Part shown: piece after piece, positions 1 through 5,083 of the stretch
Position numbering within the stretch: the stretch's first letter is position 1
How the letters are laid out: every line of letters starts with the position of its first letter
NCBI GenBank assembly: GCA_001412365.1
Contig: LKUE01000394.1
Location: forward strand, 1-9,952
Direction of reading: 5' to 3'
DNA from: Desulfuromonas sp. SDB
Lineage (GTDB): Bacteria; SDB-A
Length of the DNA stretch: 9,952 bases
Translations under genes and position numbers: made by a program
Notes under the pieces: model-generated
The model's input: only the letters and a program-made list of their open reading frames with translations
Databases searched by the model: none
Told to the model about the DNA's origin: nothing

Positions 1-92
1 GGACTATCTTGTGTGTGTTATGATTTACTTACTTGATAAAAGGGATGAAGTTGGGTTAAAGAAGTTTTTCCTCTTTTTGTCTTATCTCTTCT

Positions 93-395
93 TTAGTCAT
101 AATGTCGTTTTTCTATCGGAATTATCTTAATTTTCTCAATATTAGCAATAATTTTCTTAAGTGTGAAATGTAGTTTATGTTTTTCTGGTGGATTTCCCCA
201 AAACAGGTCATCTAACTCGTAATCATCAGCTTGCATTATTTCTCTTGTGAGCTTATAGGCTTTATCGATGTATTCAGTCTCATCTTTGCAATCGTAAGAA
301 AGCAAACCGTAATATAATGTCAAATCATGAGTTAATTTCTCAGCCTCTACTAAAATCCCATGATAAGATTCTGTTGATAAATCATCTGTATCCAT
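93..395 (-). CDS. Small hypothetical protein (100 aa), probable cassette gene
   Basis: I do not recognise a named family. The product is a 100-residue, acidic, probably all-helical soluble protein with no signal peptide or membrane segment. Visible landmarks are EAEKLTHDLTLYYGLLSY at about 17-34, a DDLFWGNPPEKHKLHF stretch in the second half, and a basic IPIEKRHYD end. The ATG at 395 has no convincing Shine-Dalgarno sequence. It begins only about 23 bases after half-site TTGGTGTAAAC (418-428) and has no clear promoter of its own, as expected for a cassette gene read from outside. It shares strand with all other array genes. The reading frame is intact with a TAA stop, and the composition (helical, charged, no low complexity) argues for a real gene. 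Function is unknown. Confidence 0.6.
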   Translation of the reverse strand: MDTDDLSTESYHGILVEAEKLTHDLTLYYGLLSYDCKDETEYIDKAYKLTREIMQADDYELDDLFWGNPPEKHKLHFTLKKIIANIEKIKIIPIEKRHYD

Positions 396-417
396 ATACA
401 GGGATGTCTTTTTTTAC

Positions 418-533
418 TTGGTGTAAACCTTTCGCGGCTATATGAAGTTTTTGCAGAACGCAGTGGAGTTTAAATTTAACTGGAGTCGAAGGGGTAACCT
501 CATATTCCTTGTTATCGGCAGTACATAATTTTA
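418..533 (-). repeat. attC-like cassette recombination site A (weak palindrome)
   Basis: The site lies between the 100-aa gene and the TPR gene. Its ends are half-sites in opposite orientation: TTG-GTGTA-AAC at 418-428 and GTT-ATCGG-CAG at 511-521. Between them is a poor imperfect palindrome centred near TTTAAATTTAA (about 470-480), with TATGAAGTT on one arm and a TATGAGGTT equivalent on the other. The right end (511-533) is an inverted copy, 20 of 23 bases, of 1134-1156 on the far side of the TPR gene. The TAA stop of the TPR gene lies inside this end. By integron logic this is the 3' site of the TPR cassette. Internal pairing is much weaker than in site B, so the call rests mainly on the end half-sites. 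Confidence 0.5.
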
Positions 534-1155
534 TTCACCGAAAAGTTTTAACCACAGACCAAATTCCTTTTTATGATTTTTAATCTTTTTATCAAACCAA
601 TTATCAATTTCTTCATCCCAATAGCCATTTTTATCAAATCGTTTGTAAAATTGTTTTTCAGACATTTTTTCTAAAATACCAAGCATGAAATATCGAACAC
701 CTACATTATCATTAGGATTTGTATCTAATAACTTTTGAAATAGTGAGTAAGCTTCAAGTGTCTTATTGTTTTTCCAATATAATATGCCCATATTCACAAA
801 TGCTCTAATAATATGACGGTTTTCAAGCCAGCCCCATTCAAGTTTTTCAGGCCATTGTCCGGTCTTTTCGGTTACCAATTCCAGAGCTTTCTCATATGCA
901 TCAGTTATAACTTTATCTGATTCAGCTTTATCACCTGTCGCTTCAAGCAAATCAGCTAATAATAAATAAGGATCTAAAAAGTATTGATCTTTGTTAATTA
1001 ATTTTTTTAGCTTTTTAATTACTGATTGAATATTATCTTCAGTAATAGAATCCTGAAGATCATAAAACTCCATGTTTGTTTTTCGTTTTGTATCTATAAA
1101 TTCCTTCATTTCTCTTTCCTTCTATGTTGATGTTAAAATTATGTATTGTCTATAA
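428..1155 (-). mobile_element. Inferred gene cassette 1 (TPR gene plus site A)
   Basis: Assuming crossover after the G of GTT, as in integrons, the cassette runs on the minus strand from TT at 1155-1154 to G at 428, 728 bp in all. It holds one gene with about 25 bases between the 5' half-site and the Shine-Dalgarno region and no visible promoter, followed immediately by site A. Its 5' terminus (1134-1155) is complementary to its own site A arm (511-533). On circularisation these would rejoin as the two arms of one palindromic site. Boundaries are inferred. Confidence 0.5.
531..1109 (-). CDS. TPR-like helical protein, cassette gene
   Basis: A 192-residue soluble protein with tetratricopeptide-like helical repeats. 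One unit spans about 47-80 (PYLLLADLLEATGDKAESDKVITDAYEKAL) and a second about 103-136 (AFVNMGILYWKNNKTLEAYSLFQKLLDTNPND), ending in the NPND turn typical of TPRs. The remainder is Trp- and Lys-rich and probably helical (WDEEIDNWFDKK at about 164-175). There is no signal peptide. TPRs are protein-interaction scaffolds; no enzymatic motif is visible, so a specific role cannot be given. The ATG at 1109 is preceded by AGAAGGAAAG, a good ribosome binding site; Met13 is a weaker alternative. The gene fills its cassette tightly, with its stop codon inside the end repeat of site A. TPR identity is moderately sure. Confidence 0.75.
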   Translation of the reverse strand: MKEFIDTKRKTNMEFYDLQDSITEDNIQSVIKKLKKLINKDQYFLDPYLLLADLLEATGDKAESDKVITDAYEKALELVTEKTGQWPEKLEWGWLENRHIIRAFVNMGILYWKNNKTLEAYSLFQKLLDTNPNDNVGVRYFMLGILEKMSEKQFYKRFDKNGYWDEEIDNWFDKKIKNHKKEFGLWLKLFGE

Positions 1156-1289
1156 CGGTTACGCATATACGCAGTAGCGGGTTTTAAACCACTTACTTTG
1201 ATACTATCACTGTTGTTTATTTGGTTCATATTATGTTGTTTTATAGTATTTTGCCCGCTATTGCGTATATGCAATGTTCTCGGCAATAT
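1134..1289 (-). repeat. attC-like cassette recombination site B (strong imperfect palindrome)
   Basis: A palindrome of about 150 bp. GCATATACGCAGTAGCGGG at 1163-1181 pairs with 1254-1272 at 18 of 19 positions. Outer half-sites TTGTCTATAAC (1146-1156) and GTTCTCGGCAA (1276-1286) face each other. They are offset by unequal bulges, 6 versus 3 bases between the half-site and the main stem, as in the extrahelical bases of integron attC sites. An inner stem pairs ATACTAT (1201-1207) with ATAGTAT (1243-1249). The left end matches site A and the right end matches site C, so the site marks a junction between two cassettes. A terminator is less likely because there is no flanking T run and the stem is interrupted. 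The minus-strand adenine methylase gene ends inside its right arm. Confidence 0.7.
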
Positions 1290-2136
1290 TTTTTTCATAT
1301 TCATCAAATAATGTTCTTGTTTTCTGTGCTTTCGTTTCTAATGGATAATTGGATATAAATAATTCGTTTCCCTTTTGGTTTCCGCTGTTTCCTACATTTC
1401 GCATACCATAAGTCAAGTTCCATTTTTTAATATTGGCAAACGAAAATAAATTTCTGATAAATTCGCTATCGTCATAAGTGATGAGCCATTTATGATTAGT
1501 GTGTTTCAAAACTTCTGCAAATCTTTCGTGGTCAAAGGTTTTATGTAAATTTCCGTTTTTACCGTAAAGAGCGGAGTTGGTTGCAGAATAATATGGTGGG
1601 TCAAGAAAAATGAAAACATTTTCGCCTTCAGCTTCTATTACTTTTTGGTAATCAAGATTTGTGATTTTTGTATTTCCTAAAATATAAGACAAAGCTTTTA
1701 CTCTCTCTATACTTGATTGAGTAAACCGCTTGCTATACGCCGCATTTGAAAAACCACCACTTTCGGTTGTTCCCGAAAATGTTATACGATTAAAAACAAA
1801 AAATGCTGCTGCCCTTTTCAAATTATCAAAACAATCAATATTTTCCATTAGATATTTGTGCAATTCTTTACCTACATTTGAATTAACATGCCAATATTGG
1901 ATTTGCTCAATGAGTTTATCAGGGTTTTGTTGAGTTTGTTTCCAAAAATGATATAAATTTTCATAAATATCGTTTATCCAAAATTTTTTGTTCGGGAATT
2001 TTTGTTTGAGATATACAAAAACAGAACCACCACCGACAAAAGGTTCCCTAAATTCATCAAATTCAGGAATTAAATGGTCAATGAATTTTATGGCTCGGCT
2101 TTTACCGCCCGGATATCTTAATGGACTTTTTATCAT
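1258..2136 (-). CDS. D12-class (Dam-like) DNA adenine-N6 methyltransferase
   Basis: Transfers a methyl group from S-adenosylmethionine to adenine N6 in the target of the adjacent endonuclease, protecting host DNA. The 292 residues carry the alpha-class motif order: SPLRYPGGK (4-12), the SAM-binding loop EPFVGGGSVF (31-40), an acidic ND pair (55-56), catalytic LDPPYY (178-183) and NELFISNY (257-264) near the end. Length is usual for D12 enzymes. The closest named families are Dam/DpnM-type, but specificity for GATC cannot be read from these motifs. The ATG at 2136 lies 2 bp after the endonuclease stop, so translation is probably coupled. The last ten residues (NIAENIAYTQ) and the TAG stop are encoded by the right arm of palindrome B, so the recombination site forms the end of the gene. 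Confidence 0.9.
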   Translation of the reverse strand: MIKSPLRYPGGKSRAIKFIDHLIPEFDEFREPFVGGGSVFVYLKQKFPNKKFWINDIYENLYHFWKQTQQNPDKLIEQIQYWHVNSNVGKELHKYLMENIDCFDNLKRAAAFFVFNRITFSGTTESGGFSNAAYSKRFTQSSIERVKALSYILGNTKITNLDYQKVIEAEGENVFIFLDPPYYSATNSALYGKNGNLHKTFDHERFAEVLKHTNHKWLITYDDSEFIRNLFSFANIKKWNLTYGMRNVGNSGNQKGNELFISNYPLETKAQKTRTLFDEYEKNIAENIAYTQ

Positions 2137-2138
2137 TG

Positions 2139-3218
2139 TTATTCTGCTTTTTCGATTATTATTTGAAAATTATTTTCATCTGCTTCGTCAAACAAATTTT
2201 TTAGGATTTCTTTATGTTTTTTATTCAATTCAGGATTTGTTTCAAAATCAGATTGATAAATATCGTTTGTCAATTTTGACGAAGTGAGTTTGAGAATAGG
2301 AATTGCCAAATATTCATTGTCATTTACCGATACATTTTTCAAATTTGAGTAAAGTATCATTTTCAGCAATCCGTCTTTAATGTCGCCAATGCTTGGCAGT
2401 ATAGAATTTCGTGAATGTTTGGCTTCAATTAAATAGACTTTGTCTTTTTCTATTCTTATTTCATCGGTTGTAAAATAATATTTTCCGCCAAGATAGTTTT
2501 CAATAGTTATGGTTGCTTTTGTCAGAGTTGATAAAACTTCTTTGGGCTGAATAGTTTGCATTTCACGGTTTTGTGCTTCTTGTGCTTTTTGCCGTGATGT
2601 TTGCATAAACTCTTTAACACCGTTAATGAATTGATTGGCAAAACGGTCAATTCCCTGTTTGTTGTGAAATGATACATTTAATCGTTTTCCGATTTCATTA
2701 TAACTTGTTTTTACTTTTTGGATTAAATCGGAGAATGACTTTTCAATTTCTTTCAAATTCCAATGCAAAGCTGAACTGTGATAATTTTTTATTTCGGTAA
2801 TTTTTTGCTTTACCAACTCATTATCAAATTGTTGATTAGTGATTTTATTATCTCGTGTCTTATGTTTTTCGGCTGTTTTGTAATATGCAAAAACGACAAA
2901 AACATCAAGCAAACTCATAAGCGAAACAGTATCCCATTGGATAAAATCTCTGTCCCCCTTTTTACCTTCATCTTTGATAATTGGGATAACGGTTATTCGT
3001 TTTGCTGTTCCAAGCGTGTTATAAACTCTTTCGTATGGATAGGAACGGGTTCTTTTGGGCGAAACCCATTTTGACAAGCCAAATGAAAATCCGTTATAAT
3101 TTATCAAACAATTAGCAGGAAGTTCATTGATATTTAAACTATCAAAGTCAAATACTGCCAAATCACTTGTCAATTTAGATTTATATTCAATTCCCGTTAT
3201 TTTTGCTGTAATATCCAT
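2139..3218 (-). CDS. Probable type II restriction endonuclease, PD-(D/E)XK fold
   Basis: A 359-residue protein between two DNA methyltransferase genes, which strongly suggests the cognate endonuclease. A candidate PD-(D/E)XK site sits in the C-terminal half: TTDEI at 250-254, then VYLIEAKHS at 261-269, giving D252 or E253 plus E265-A-K267 for metal binding. A helix and the strand EYLAIPILKL follow, as in this fold. The N-terminal part holds a conserved-looking block, SPKRTRSYPYERVYNTL then RITVIPIIKDEGKKGDRDFIQWDTVSLMSLLDVFVVFAYY (53-113), possibly for target recognition. A charged helical segment at 150-225 may be coiled. The ATG at 3218 lies 4 bp after the upstream methyltransferase stop, behind AAAGGTAG. 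Cleavage site is unknown. An N-terminal region shared with non-nuclease proteins would be the main alternative. Confidence 0.75.
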   Translation of the reverse strand: MDITAKITGIEYKSKLTSDLAVFDFDSLNINELPANCLINYNGFSFGLSKWVSPKRTRSYPYERVYNTLGTAKRITVIPIIKDEGKKGDRDFIQWDTVSLMSLLDVFVVFAYYKTAEKHKTRDNKITNQQFDNELVKQKITEIKNYHSSALHWNLKEIEKSFSDLIQKVKTSYNEIGKRLNVSFHNKQGIDRFANQFINGVKEFMQTSRQKAQEAQNREMQTIQPKEVLSTLTKATITIENYLGGKYYFTTDEIRIEKDKVYLIEAKHSRNSILPSIGDIKDGLLKMILYSNLKNVSVNDNEYLAIPILKLTSSKLTNDIYQSDFETNPELNKKHKEILKNLFDEADENNFQIIIEKAE

Positions 3219-3222
3219 AAAA

Positions 3223-4077
3223 TTAAACTACCTTTTTCTTGTTTTCGATGTAATCCAAAGTTACAAATCTATACTTTCCTTGGTTACGTTCTATAACTTC
3301 CAAATTATCGGAATTAACCTTTTTTCTGATAACACTTTCCAAATCTCTAATAATTTCAATCCCGATTGAATTTCTGCCTAAATGATTTGCTACCTTCATT
3401 GTGGTTCCGCTACCGACAAAAGGATCAAGAACTGTGTCGCCAACATACGAAAATAGTTTTATTAACCGGTAGGGTAATTCGTCAGGGAAAGCGGCAACGC
3501 CTTTCTCAAGCTTTGATCCAGGTAAAACATTTGTCATTTCCCAAATGGTTTTATGCCAATTGTTATTTTGAAATTCTTTTTTATCAATTTTTGATTTTTC
3601 TCTTATTTCTTTTGAAATTGATCGATAATTAAATTTTCCTTTTTGGAAAATAATGATGCTTTCCAATAAGTTGTCAGGATAAAAATACATTGGATAAGGA
3701 TTTTGCAATAATACCCCGCTACGTTTACTTATTCGTAAATAACCATCGGGCTTTTTCCAAACAATTTTATCTCTGTATCTAAATCCAACACTTTGAAATA
3801 TCTTTATGGCATCAGCTGTTATAGGATATTTTTCTCCATTTACAAGCATATCATCAATATTTAAGGCAAATATTCTACCTTTTTGCAAAACACGATAGGC
3901 TTCTTTTGCCATTTTTTTTAAGACACCGAGATATTGTTCGTAATTTTTAAAAAGGTCTTTATAGTCAAACGGCGCATTAAAATAAGGTGGAGAAGTAATA
4001 ATTAAATGAATACTTTCAACAGGTATTTCAGCCATACTCATTGAATTACCGAATATTATTTTATGTTTTGTATTCAT
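3223..4077 (-). CDS. Beta-class DNA methyltransferase (N4-cytosine or N6-adenine)
   Basis: A 284-residue SAM-dependent DNA methyltransferase with the circularly permuted beta order. The catalytic motif TSPPYF comes first (28-33) and the SAM-binding motif DPFVGSGTT last (218-226), preceded by AAFPDELPYRLIKLFS (195-210). KIVWKKPDG (104-112) and IWEM (178-181) are also typical. TSPPY is compatible with N4-cytosine or N6-adenine methylation; the base cannot be settled here. It is first in a three-gene operon with the endonuclease and a D12 methylase. Systems with one alpha and one beta methyltransferase include DpnII-like systems and type IIS systems that need one enzyme per strand. The ATG at 4077 has no good Shine-Dalgarno; a TAATTTTG box lies just upstream. 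Confidence 0.88.
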   Translation of the reverse strand: MNTKHKIIFGNSMSMAEIPVESIHLIITSPPYFNAPFDYKDLFKNYEQYLGVLKKMAKEAYRVLQKGRIFALNIDDMLVNGEKYPITADAIKIFQSVGFRYRDKIVWKKPDGYLRISKRSGVLLQNPYPMYFYPDNLLESIIIFQKGKFNYRSISKEIREKSKIDKKEFQNNNWHKTIWEMTNVLPGSKLEKGVAAFPDELPYRLIKLFSYVGDTVLDPFVGSGTTMKVANHLGRNSIGIEIIRDLESVIRKKVNSDNLEVIERNQGKYRFVTLDYIENKKKVV

Positions 4078-4081
4078 GTTG

Positions 4082-4089
4082 CAAAATTA
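4082..4089 (-). promoter_or_regulatory. Possible Bacteroidota-type -7 box for the restriction-modification operon
   Basis: On the minus strand the sequence TAATTTTG fits the Bacteroidota -7 consensus TAnnTTTG exactly and ends 4 bases before the methyltransferase ATG. The TTG expected about 20 bases further upstream is not clear. If used, transcription would start at or near the ATG. AT-rich DNA gives such matches by chance, so this is only a candidate for an in-cassette promoter. Confidence 0.25.
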
Positions 4090-4135
4090 CCTTTTTTTTC
4101 AAAGTTTATCATTTAATCTCAGTATTTCCTTTATA

Positions 4136-4209
4136 TTGCCGAGAACGTTTGTGTAAATCCTATTGCGTATATTCCGCTAAATTGGTGGAATAAACACAAT
4201 TGCGTATAT
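4136..4209 (-). repeat. Integrase-proximal recombination site C (candidate attI-like site)
   Basis: TTGCCGAGAAC at 4136-4146 is the half-site that is inverted and identical at the other end of the restriction-modification cassette (1276-1286). Next to it lies a hairpin: TTGTGT (4149-4154) pairs with ACACAA (4194-4199), and TATTCCGC (4170-4177) pairs with GTGGAATA (4185-4192) with one G-T wobble, around a 7-base loop. The 13-mer CTATTGCGTATAT (4160-4172) is identical to 1258-1270 in site B. Unlike A and B there is no facing second half-site before the recombinase gene. A one-sided site between recombinase and first cassette fits an attI role; a decayed attC is the alternative. Confidence 0.45.
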
Positions 4210-4234
4210 TTTTCTTTTATCATTTTTAAACCCC

Positions 4235-5083
4235 TTAATCAAAAAAATCATCAATGGGATTTCTTATTTTATCAATTGCCTTTTTTGATACATGCGTATA
4301 AATTTCAGTTGTTTTAGAACTGTTATGTCCCAATAACTCCTGGATATATCTTAAATCAGTTCCTTGTTCGAGTAAGTGAGTGGCAAAACTATGGCGTAAC
4401 ATGTGTGGAGTAACAGTTTTACGGATTCCCGCCTTTAATGCAGCCTTCTTCAAAATATTTGCTACGCTGGTTGGAGAATACTTCCCTCCATTTTGACCTT
4501 CAAAGAGATATTTTTCCGGCTTATACTTTTTATAATAATCTCTTAATAGTGTAAGTAAATTTTCTGAGAGCAATGAAATTCTATCTTTCTTGCCCTTTGC
4601 TCCTTTTATATTAATTACCATTCTTTCAGAATCAATATCAGAAATACTGAGGTTAAATAATTCACTTCGTCTTAACCCAGCAGAATAGATCAACATTAAA
4701 ATAGATTTGTGTTTTATATTGTCGCATGATTTTAAAATACTTTTCACCTCGTTTTTACTTAATACTTTTGGCAATTTATGTTCTTTTTTAGGCCGATGTA
4801 AATCGTAATATTGTTTTTCTCTGCCAAGAATTTTTTCATAATAGAATTTAATTGCATTGATTCTTTGATTTTGCTGACTTGCAGAAATATTTTTTGTATT
4901 TATAAGCTCTAAAATATAAGAATTTATCTGACTTGTTGTCACATCCTGAATTTTTTCAACCTCATTCAATACCTCAAAATAGTTAAGAAAATCCTTAAAA
5001 TAGTTACAATATGTTTTTATCGTATTTTTGCTATATCTCTTTTGAATAAGTAAATTCTTATATTTTTCAATAACTTCTTGCAT
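4235..5083 (-). CDS. Xer-like tyrosine recombinase, probable cassette integrase
   Basis: Catalyses site-specific DNA cutting and joining through a tyrosine nucleophile. The 282 residues comprise an N-terminal SAM-like core-binding domain (about 1-90, KRYSKNTIKTYCNYFKDFL) and a C-terminal catalytic domain. The full set is visible: R138 (SAGLRRSEL), K163 (GAKGKKDR), H227 and R230 (HMLRHSFATHLL), H253 (LLGHNSSKTT) and Y262 (IYTHV). Length and layout match XerC/XerD. The segment from about 180 to 220 is short, so the insertion that marks integron integrases (IntI) near the HxxR box is absent. The C-terminal KIRNPIDDFF resembles the RSPLD end seen in IntI. The gene is codirectional with the cassettes, with its 3' end facing them, an arrangement known from reverse integrons such as that of Treponema denticola. 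The role as cassette integrase is inferred from context. Confidence 0.85.
   Translation of the reverse strand: MQEVIEKYKNLLIQKRYSKNTIKTYCNYFKDFLNYFEVLNEVEKIQDVTTSQINSYILELINTKNISASQQNQRINAIKFYYEKILGREKQYYDLHRPKKEHKLPKVLSKNEVKSILKSCDNIKHKSILMLIYSAGLRRSELFNLSISDIDSERMVINIKGAKGKKDRISLLSENLLTLLRDYYKKYKPEKYLFEGQNGGKYSPTSVANILKKAALKAGIRKTVTPHMLRHSFATHLLEQGTDLRYIQELLGHNSSKTTEIYTHVSKKAIDKIRNPIDDFFD

Follow-up and report, generated by a model that had tools for sequence, protein, structure and literature searches.

Integron-like cassette arrays headed by a short tyrosine recombinase in Desulfuromonas sp. SDB and in related loci of other phyla

Integrons are the system that spreads resistance genes. 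In reverse integrons of the Treponema denticola type, the recombinase and the cassettes share one orientation and attI lies downstream of the recombinase gene; the Treponema IntI carries the extra domain (~40 residues) specific to IntI. Integron surveys and IntegronFinder require this domain (PMC9668308, PMC2426708), and the one Bacteroidetes that IntegronFinder 2.0 names, by way of example, as having a complete integron is Salinibacter (PMC9024848). A further kind of array, rAID, belongs to gut Bacteroidales and combines a tyrosine recombinase with short genes in one orientation and with intergenic motifs that are conserved, and the build-up of these immunity arrays is an area of active research (PMC12247911). 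Here we describe a cassette array in Desulfuromonas sp. SDB whose first gene encodes a short tyrosine recombinase without the IntI-specific domain. The stretch analyzed (the window, 9,952 nt) is bases 1 to 9952 of contig LKUE01000394.1 (C394) in a 433-contig, 3.1-Mb genome (GCA_001412365.1; 98.7% complete), whose phylum is a small group of four genomes in our genome set. An initial annotation of this DNA had proposed an integron-like cassette system, either a divergent integron or an independent relative.

Comparative evidence supports the proposal of an integron-like system: an attI shared among relatives and followed by unrelated first cassettes (16 loci), cassettes whose two ends complement each other, covarying attC sites, and a recombinase without the IntI insertion. 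Judging from these sequence patterns, the array very probably works by an integron mechanism with the short recombinase as its integrase, and the window would show a reverse-oriented integron at the end where its integrase lies. From position 5083 leftwards all genes lie on the minus strand, as first described for 93-5083, in the order recombinase, three restriction-modification genes, a tetratricopeptide repeat (TPR) gene, and a 100-aa open reading frame (ORF). The features are as follows.

4235-5083, minus strand: tyrosine recombinase of the integron type, short (282 aa) and oriented like the cassettes
4146-4225, minus strand: attI-like block in the gap that separates the recombinase stop from the first cassette, with an imperfect palindrome at ~4160-4205
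1156-4145, minus strand: cassette 1, which is a type II restriction-modification operon with all its parts
3223-4077, minus strand: cassette 1 gene, N6_N4 DNA methyltransferase (PF01555, 1.4e-48; PADLOC MTase_II, 3e-78)
2139-3218, minus strand: cassette 1 gene, type II restriction endonuclease (PADLOC REase_II, 4e-80)
1258-2136, minus strand: cassette 1 gene, D12-class (Dam-like) adenine methyltransferase (PF02086, 6e-41; PADLOC MTase_II, 1e-110), its 3' end overlapping attC site A
1145-1286, minus strand: attC site A, with R'' at 1276-1286, R' at 1146-1156, and a long L-stem between
428-1155, minus strand: cassette 2, with a TPR-repeat protein gene at 531-1109 (TPR_8, 5.6e-6)
418-521, minus strand: attC site B (weak), with R'' at 511-521, arms TATGAGGTT/AACTTCATA, and R' at 418-428
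1-427, minus strand: cassette 3, incomplete at the contig end, with an ORF at 93-395 (100 aa)

A single scan of genome contigs yielded 48 relatives. The closest (72-79% identity) belong to KSB1, Neomarinimicrobiota, Cloacimonadota, Syntrophaceae, Fermentibacterota, and Spirochaetaceae, while the remainder are mostly from Bacteroidota; recombinase and attI are common to relatives from at least seven phyla. In close relatives the 80-90 nt past the recombinase stop can be aligned, ending in a stretch like TATACACAAAC and then GTT, and mean column identity of this attI-like block between the window and the six groups just named is 73%. From GTT onwards the sequences are unrelated between relatives, and no homologous ORF (E 1e-5) was found between any of the first cassettes at 16 loci. 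The cut site in the window would lie between 4146 (G) and 4145 (T). A similar break is seen in the Polaribacter group, where the genomes G058 and G109 share every one of the 1,393 bases ahead of the junction and part company right past GTT, and in G065, whose two recombinase-attI copies are 98.9% identical across 1,361 bp and have unlike first cassettes. The initial annotation had weighed an absence of sites from relatives, or one gene order in all of them, as objections to a cassette system; sites are instead plentiful, and gene content is unlike at every locus.

Several further observations concern these junctions. The two G065 copies (L127 and L128, on contig C1) lie 57 kb apart on the same chromosome, with near-identical cassettes of ~1.4-1.6 kb at several positions in both arrays. 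The attI palindrome of the window (4160-4205) is conserved at L007-L012, L028, L030, L046, and L052, and may play a role in the mechanism; in flavobacteria its loop is close to CACCCAATTTTGGGTG and its arms differ in sequence. At two loci the normal attI-cassette junction is replaced by repeats, palindromic or direct, that stand in tandem right after the recombinase (L033:1339-1530 and L019:6816-7200). Many Polaribacter-group genomes carry a second subfamily of short recombinases, 45-48% identical to that of the window (L107, L110, L112-L115, L117), with an attI-like block of its own (TATATTTGATTnnATATAACnnGTT) and a first cassette that changes from locus to locus. In G058 (L118; C1:838000-857000), a partial tRNA-Met-like copy lies upstream of the recombinase and an apparently intact copy ~16 kb away, as if the integron sat within a tRNA-targeted island.

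The five half-sites of pattern YTG-N5-AAC that had first drawn attention to the window are all present: TTGGTGTAAAC at 418-428, GTTATCGGCAG at 511-521 (inverted), TTGTCTATAAC at 1146-1156, GTTCTCGGCAA at 1276-1286 (inverted), and TTGCCGAGAAC at 4136-4146. The pattern by itself was dropped as evidence, since its 5 copies per strand in the window match chance frequency (4.95 expected). The informative signal is the relation between half-sites, in which each cassette 5' end complements its own 3' end. In cassette 1 the 5' end GTTCTCGGCAATA (minus strand, running down from 4146) agrees at 13 of 13 positions with the reverse complement of the 3' R'' TATTGCCGAGAAC ending at 1276, a 13-mer with ~0.0001 expected occurrences per strand; the ends of cassette 2 are complementary at 20 of 23 nt (87%). 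A test on first cassettes took its pairs by similarity and is biased; an unbiased one comes from two long arrays. On a contig of Polaribacter MSW5, with sites picked by covariance model alone, 38 of 41 cassettes match their own end at 6 or more of 8 positions, as against none of 39 same-site pairs, and the own-end mean is 6.54 versus 2.86 ± 0.23 for shuffles (maximum, 3.73 in 5,000). The corresponding means in a Cyclobacteriaceae array are 6.11 and 3.47 ± 0.30. A cut between G and TT would leave most of R' with the incoming cassette, so that R' matches its own R'' and not that of its neighbor.

In the Polaribacter isolate the array extends ~80 kb from the recombinase, with 44 or more detected sites that are co-oriented on one strand, and is by size a superintegron. 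In most Polaribacter cassettes (L081-L085), the sole mismatch between R' and its own R'' is always at the eleventh base, with A in R' and G in the R'' complement, an asymmetry that may mark orientation. Short recombinases of the window's family occur in 91 of 146 genomes of one flavobacterial genus group.

The attC sites fold as well as match. Among 14 sites of ~120 nt, selected for pairing, compensatory changes affect 20 of 25 stem pairs, and the covariation score is 0.433 compared with 0.182 ± 0.023 when shuffled and at most 0.153 with slid partners; because of that selection, the stronger evidence comes from the cassette-end test, whose outcome is not imposed by pairing. In the window, site A has the palindromic character first ascribed to both sites: its DNA fold has z = -3.5 (1 of 200 shuffles equally good), with 19-nt arms 95% complementary. 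An attC model built from 73 sites, all from other genomes, scores site A at 70.7 bits (E 2e-13; opposite strand, 39.9 bits), making it the top match across the 3.1-Mb genome. A second weak match in this genome (C225:4877-5018, 28 bits) was discarded because it looks like ABC transporter coding sequence, and the strict pattern TTGCCGAKAAC-N-GTTAT had no match in the genome. The R' boxes of the window, GTTCTCG, GTTATAG, and GTTTACA, fall outside GTTRRRY while keeping the GTT/AAC cores, so the misfit to the classical RYYYAAC/GTTRRRY core pointed out earlier is real.

The recombinase matches Pfam PF00589 (1.4e-44) and NCBIfam NF040815 (above cutoff), in agreement with its first description as a tyrosine recombinase at the head of the array. 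Against TIGR02249 it scores 214 bits, below the cutoff of 265, with the match split into two stretches, and it is likewise below the XerC and XerD cutoffs of TIGR02224/02225. The catalytic residues R137, K162, H226, R229, H252, and Y261 are invariant in 26 aligned sequences. The extra domain is absent from this protein and its short relatives, as had been noted for the window: alignment to IntI4 (2a3v) comes in two pieces and skips ~37 residues, and the spacing from the catalytic K motif to H-x-x-R is ~65 residues (median), compared with 69 to 73 in Xer and 103 to 107 in classical IntI. An AlphaFold2 model built with the 26-sequence alignment (mean confidence [pLDDT], 85; 45 without alignment) has XerA (Z 24.5) and IntI4 (Z 22.1) as its best folds. 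Our tree joins the short group to classical IntI on one side, opposite Xer, with 100/100 support, and an independent relative, the second of the two options first proposed, is therefore unlikely. Classical IntI, itself a clade supported at 100/100, branches from among the short enzymes, but weakly (about 82/90), and a single short clade is not rejected by the approximately unbiased test (p 0.23), so IntI may have arisen either within the short group or beside it. The outgroup is thin, as the tree includes only four Xer and nine classical IntI sequences.

In the mechanism that we propose, the short recombinase would recombine attI, just past its own gene, with the attC hairpins of the cassettes. 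Insertion would take place at G^TT, and new cassettes would therefore enter beside the recombinase, all facing away. The substrate would be a folded single strand, of which one particular strand would probably be cut, and cassettes would probably be expressed from upstream. The window has an attI beside the integrase gene, foldable attC sites (site B weakly so), and a 5' end complementing its own R''; on testing it has neither the IntI extra domain nor the RYYYAAC/GTTRRRY consensus and is therefore not a standard integron by the usual definition, though integron-like in its working.

A number of results weigh against this mechanism. Site B folds no better than its shuffles (z = +1.0) and gave no strong match in the attC model search, so that only one of the two sites originally called palindromic is firm; what supports site B is the complementarity of the cassette 2 ends (R'') and its TATGAGGTT/AACTTCATA arms, which resemble the site at L009. 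Site A is the only strong site in the window's genome, site B being weaker. The genome shows just these two since the contig stops before the array does; the search for further sites suggested by the initial annotation thus came up short at home and succeeded in relatives, which are rich in them. For the attI hairpin, RNAalifold found no structure in a mixed attI alignment; in a hand-drawn hairpin for seven close relatives 83% of cells pair, with covariation that is marginal, or suggestive only, as 14 of 500 shuffles reach its score. Messier and Roy 2001, as titled in the reference lists of PMC9668308 and PMC2426708, hold the extra domain to be necessary for IntI activity, and a recombinase survey terms the insertion essential while finding it incompletely conserved in an integron-like subgroup (PMC8138268). 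We infer catalysis by the short recombinase from the comparisons above, and we count this step, too, on the opposing side. Finally, contig C253 of the window's genome carries a classical IntI with the extra domain, which may have acted on these cassettes.

This last point leads to the most serious competing explanation, in which the cassettes are moved by the C253 enzyme and the short recombinase is a bystander or a cassette passenger. A classical IntI is also present in six of 28 other carrier genomes. None was found in the remaining 22, which include several cultured flavobacteria, yet many of these have long arrays that start at the short recombinase; an IntI profile run on 12 array-bearing genomes gave nothing over cutoff, its leading matches being halves split around positions 181 to 235. 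Moreover, the attI-like block accompanies the short recombinase across phyla, and site model R1 found no site on the C253 contig. The classical enzyme is therefore a possible helper in the window's genome but is excluded as one across the short-recombinase family, and we regard this explanation as improbable. On C253 (1-8692, L068), the classical IntI is divergent from defense-like cassettes, judged from translations to include a TIR-like domain protein and an OLD-like ATPase/nuclease, among others. The genome thus has two integron types, which suggests exchange between two cassette pools.

Also to be weighed is an array of modules of the XerCD/dif type, or else an invertible shufflon, in which short inverted sites would flank genes flipped or resolved by a Xer-like enzyme. 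XerA enzymes are the closest solved sequence relatives of the recombinase, and short palindromic half-sites do surround the genes; but the cassettes are co-directional (66 versus 12 in the Polaribacter array, counting ORFs of 80 aa or more), the sites form long asymmetric hairpins whose arms covary, attI fixes one end while the other cassette end matches only its own partner, and the recombinase clusters with IntI. We consider such an array very unlikely. Palindromes arising by chance in a genomic island that is AT-rich and fixed in gene order are less likely still, to the point of being barely credible: the chance frequency of YTG-N5-AAC and the poor fold of site B are what this explanation would predict, whereas the exact 13-mer ends, the independent recovery of site A, and the unlike gene content at every relative locus are not, and several of the relatives' arrays come from isolate genomes.

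Elsewhere in the window, ordinary chromosomal genes lie to the right of 5083 (an anti-sigma factor, an extracytoplasmic function [ECF] sigma factor, LspA, and a TPR protein). A family search of the window's proteins gave no match for the 100-aa ORF of cassette 3, and Rfam and tRNA scans of the window returned nothing.

The integron mechanism with a short integrase may extend to gut immunity arrays. The nearest plasmid-borne relative of the recombinase, from Parabacteroides distasonis (NZ_OY725747.1; 57% identical), stands first in an array made up of SMI1/KNR4 and Tdi1 immunity genes (L055:8801-15300) that fits the published description of rAID, by which we identified it (PMC12247911). On a looser automated site list (a stricter one gave one site) that includes one evidently spurious site, rAID cassette ends match their own partners with a mean of 7.1 of 10, compared with 5.56 ± 0.36 for shuffles and a value as high in 0 of 5,000. 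Gut rAID arrays obey the cassette-end rule and therefore look like members of the same family. The original rAID paper of Ross et al. (2019) may have commented on a resemblance to integrons. We tentatively entertain, while rating it somewhat below an even chance, a broader scenario in which the short integrases are a stem group that gave rise to classical IntI when the extra domain was gained, and in which short-integrase integrons, including rAID and the flavobacterial superintegrons, are the main Bacteroidota type, missed by domain-based surveys because these define IntI by that domain. An incomplete literature search found no paper on these arrays, and a whole family that is frequent in Bacteroidota seems to have escaped notice. 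Should the arrays prove to be working integrons, integrons would have a far wider known range and a far larger cassette pool, their recombination would not depend on the extra domain, and the way in which rAID immunity arrays are assembled could be tested directly.

Compared with Vibrio-type sedentary integrons, the arrays described here share an attI adjoining the recombinase, tandem co-oriented and mostly single-gene cassettes, attC sites of ~120 nt, cassette 5' ends that complement their own R'', and insertion at G^TT. They differ in that the window recombinase lacks the extra domain and lies in cassette orientation, and in an R' core that is GTTRNNNNYAA-like as opposed to GTTRRRY. An integrase in cassette orientation, found also at L007-L012, L034, and L046, and an attI downstream of its gene are shared with reverse integrons of the Treponema type. 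With XerA, XerC, and XerD the window recombinase shares a short two-domain tyrosine recombinase fold, but by context it is not a dif resolvase, and it lies on a separate branch from Xer (100/100). With rAID the likeness is that a homologous recombinase heads an array with repeated intergenic sites whose ends match their own partners. The rAID sites are hairpins of ~40 nt with core A^TT, in contrast to G^TT in the window's family, and rAID cassettes are type VI secretion system immunity genes, whereas those of the window carry a type II restriction-modification operon, a TPR gene, and an ORF with no match.

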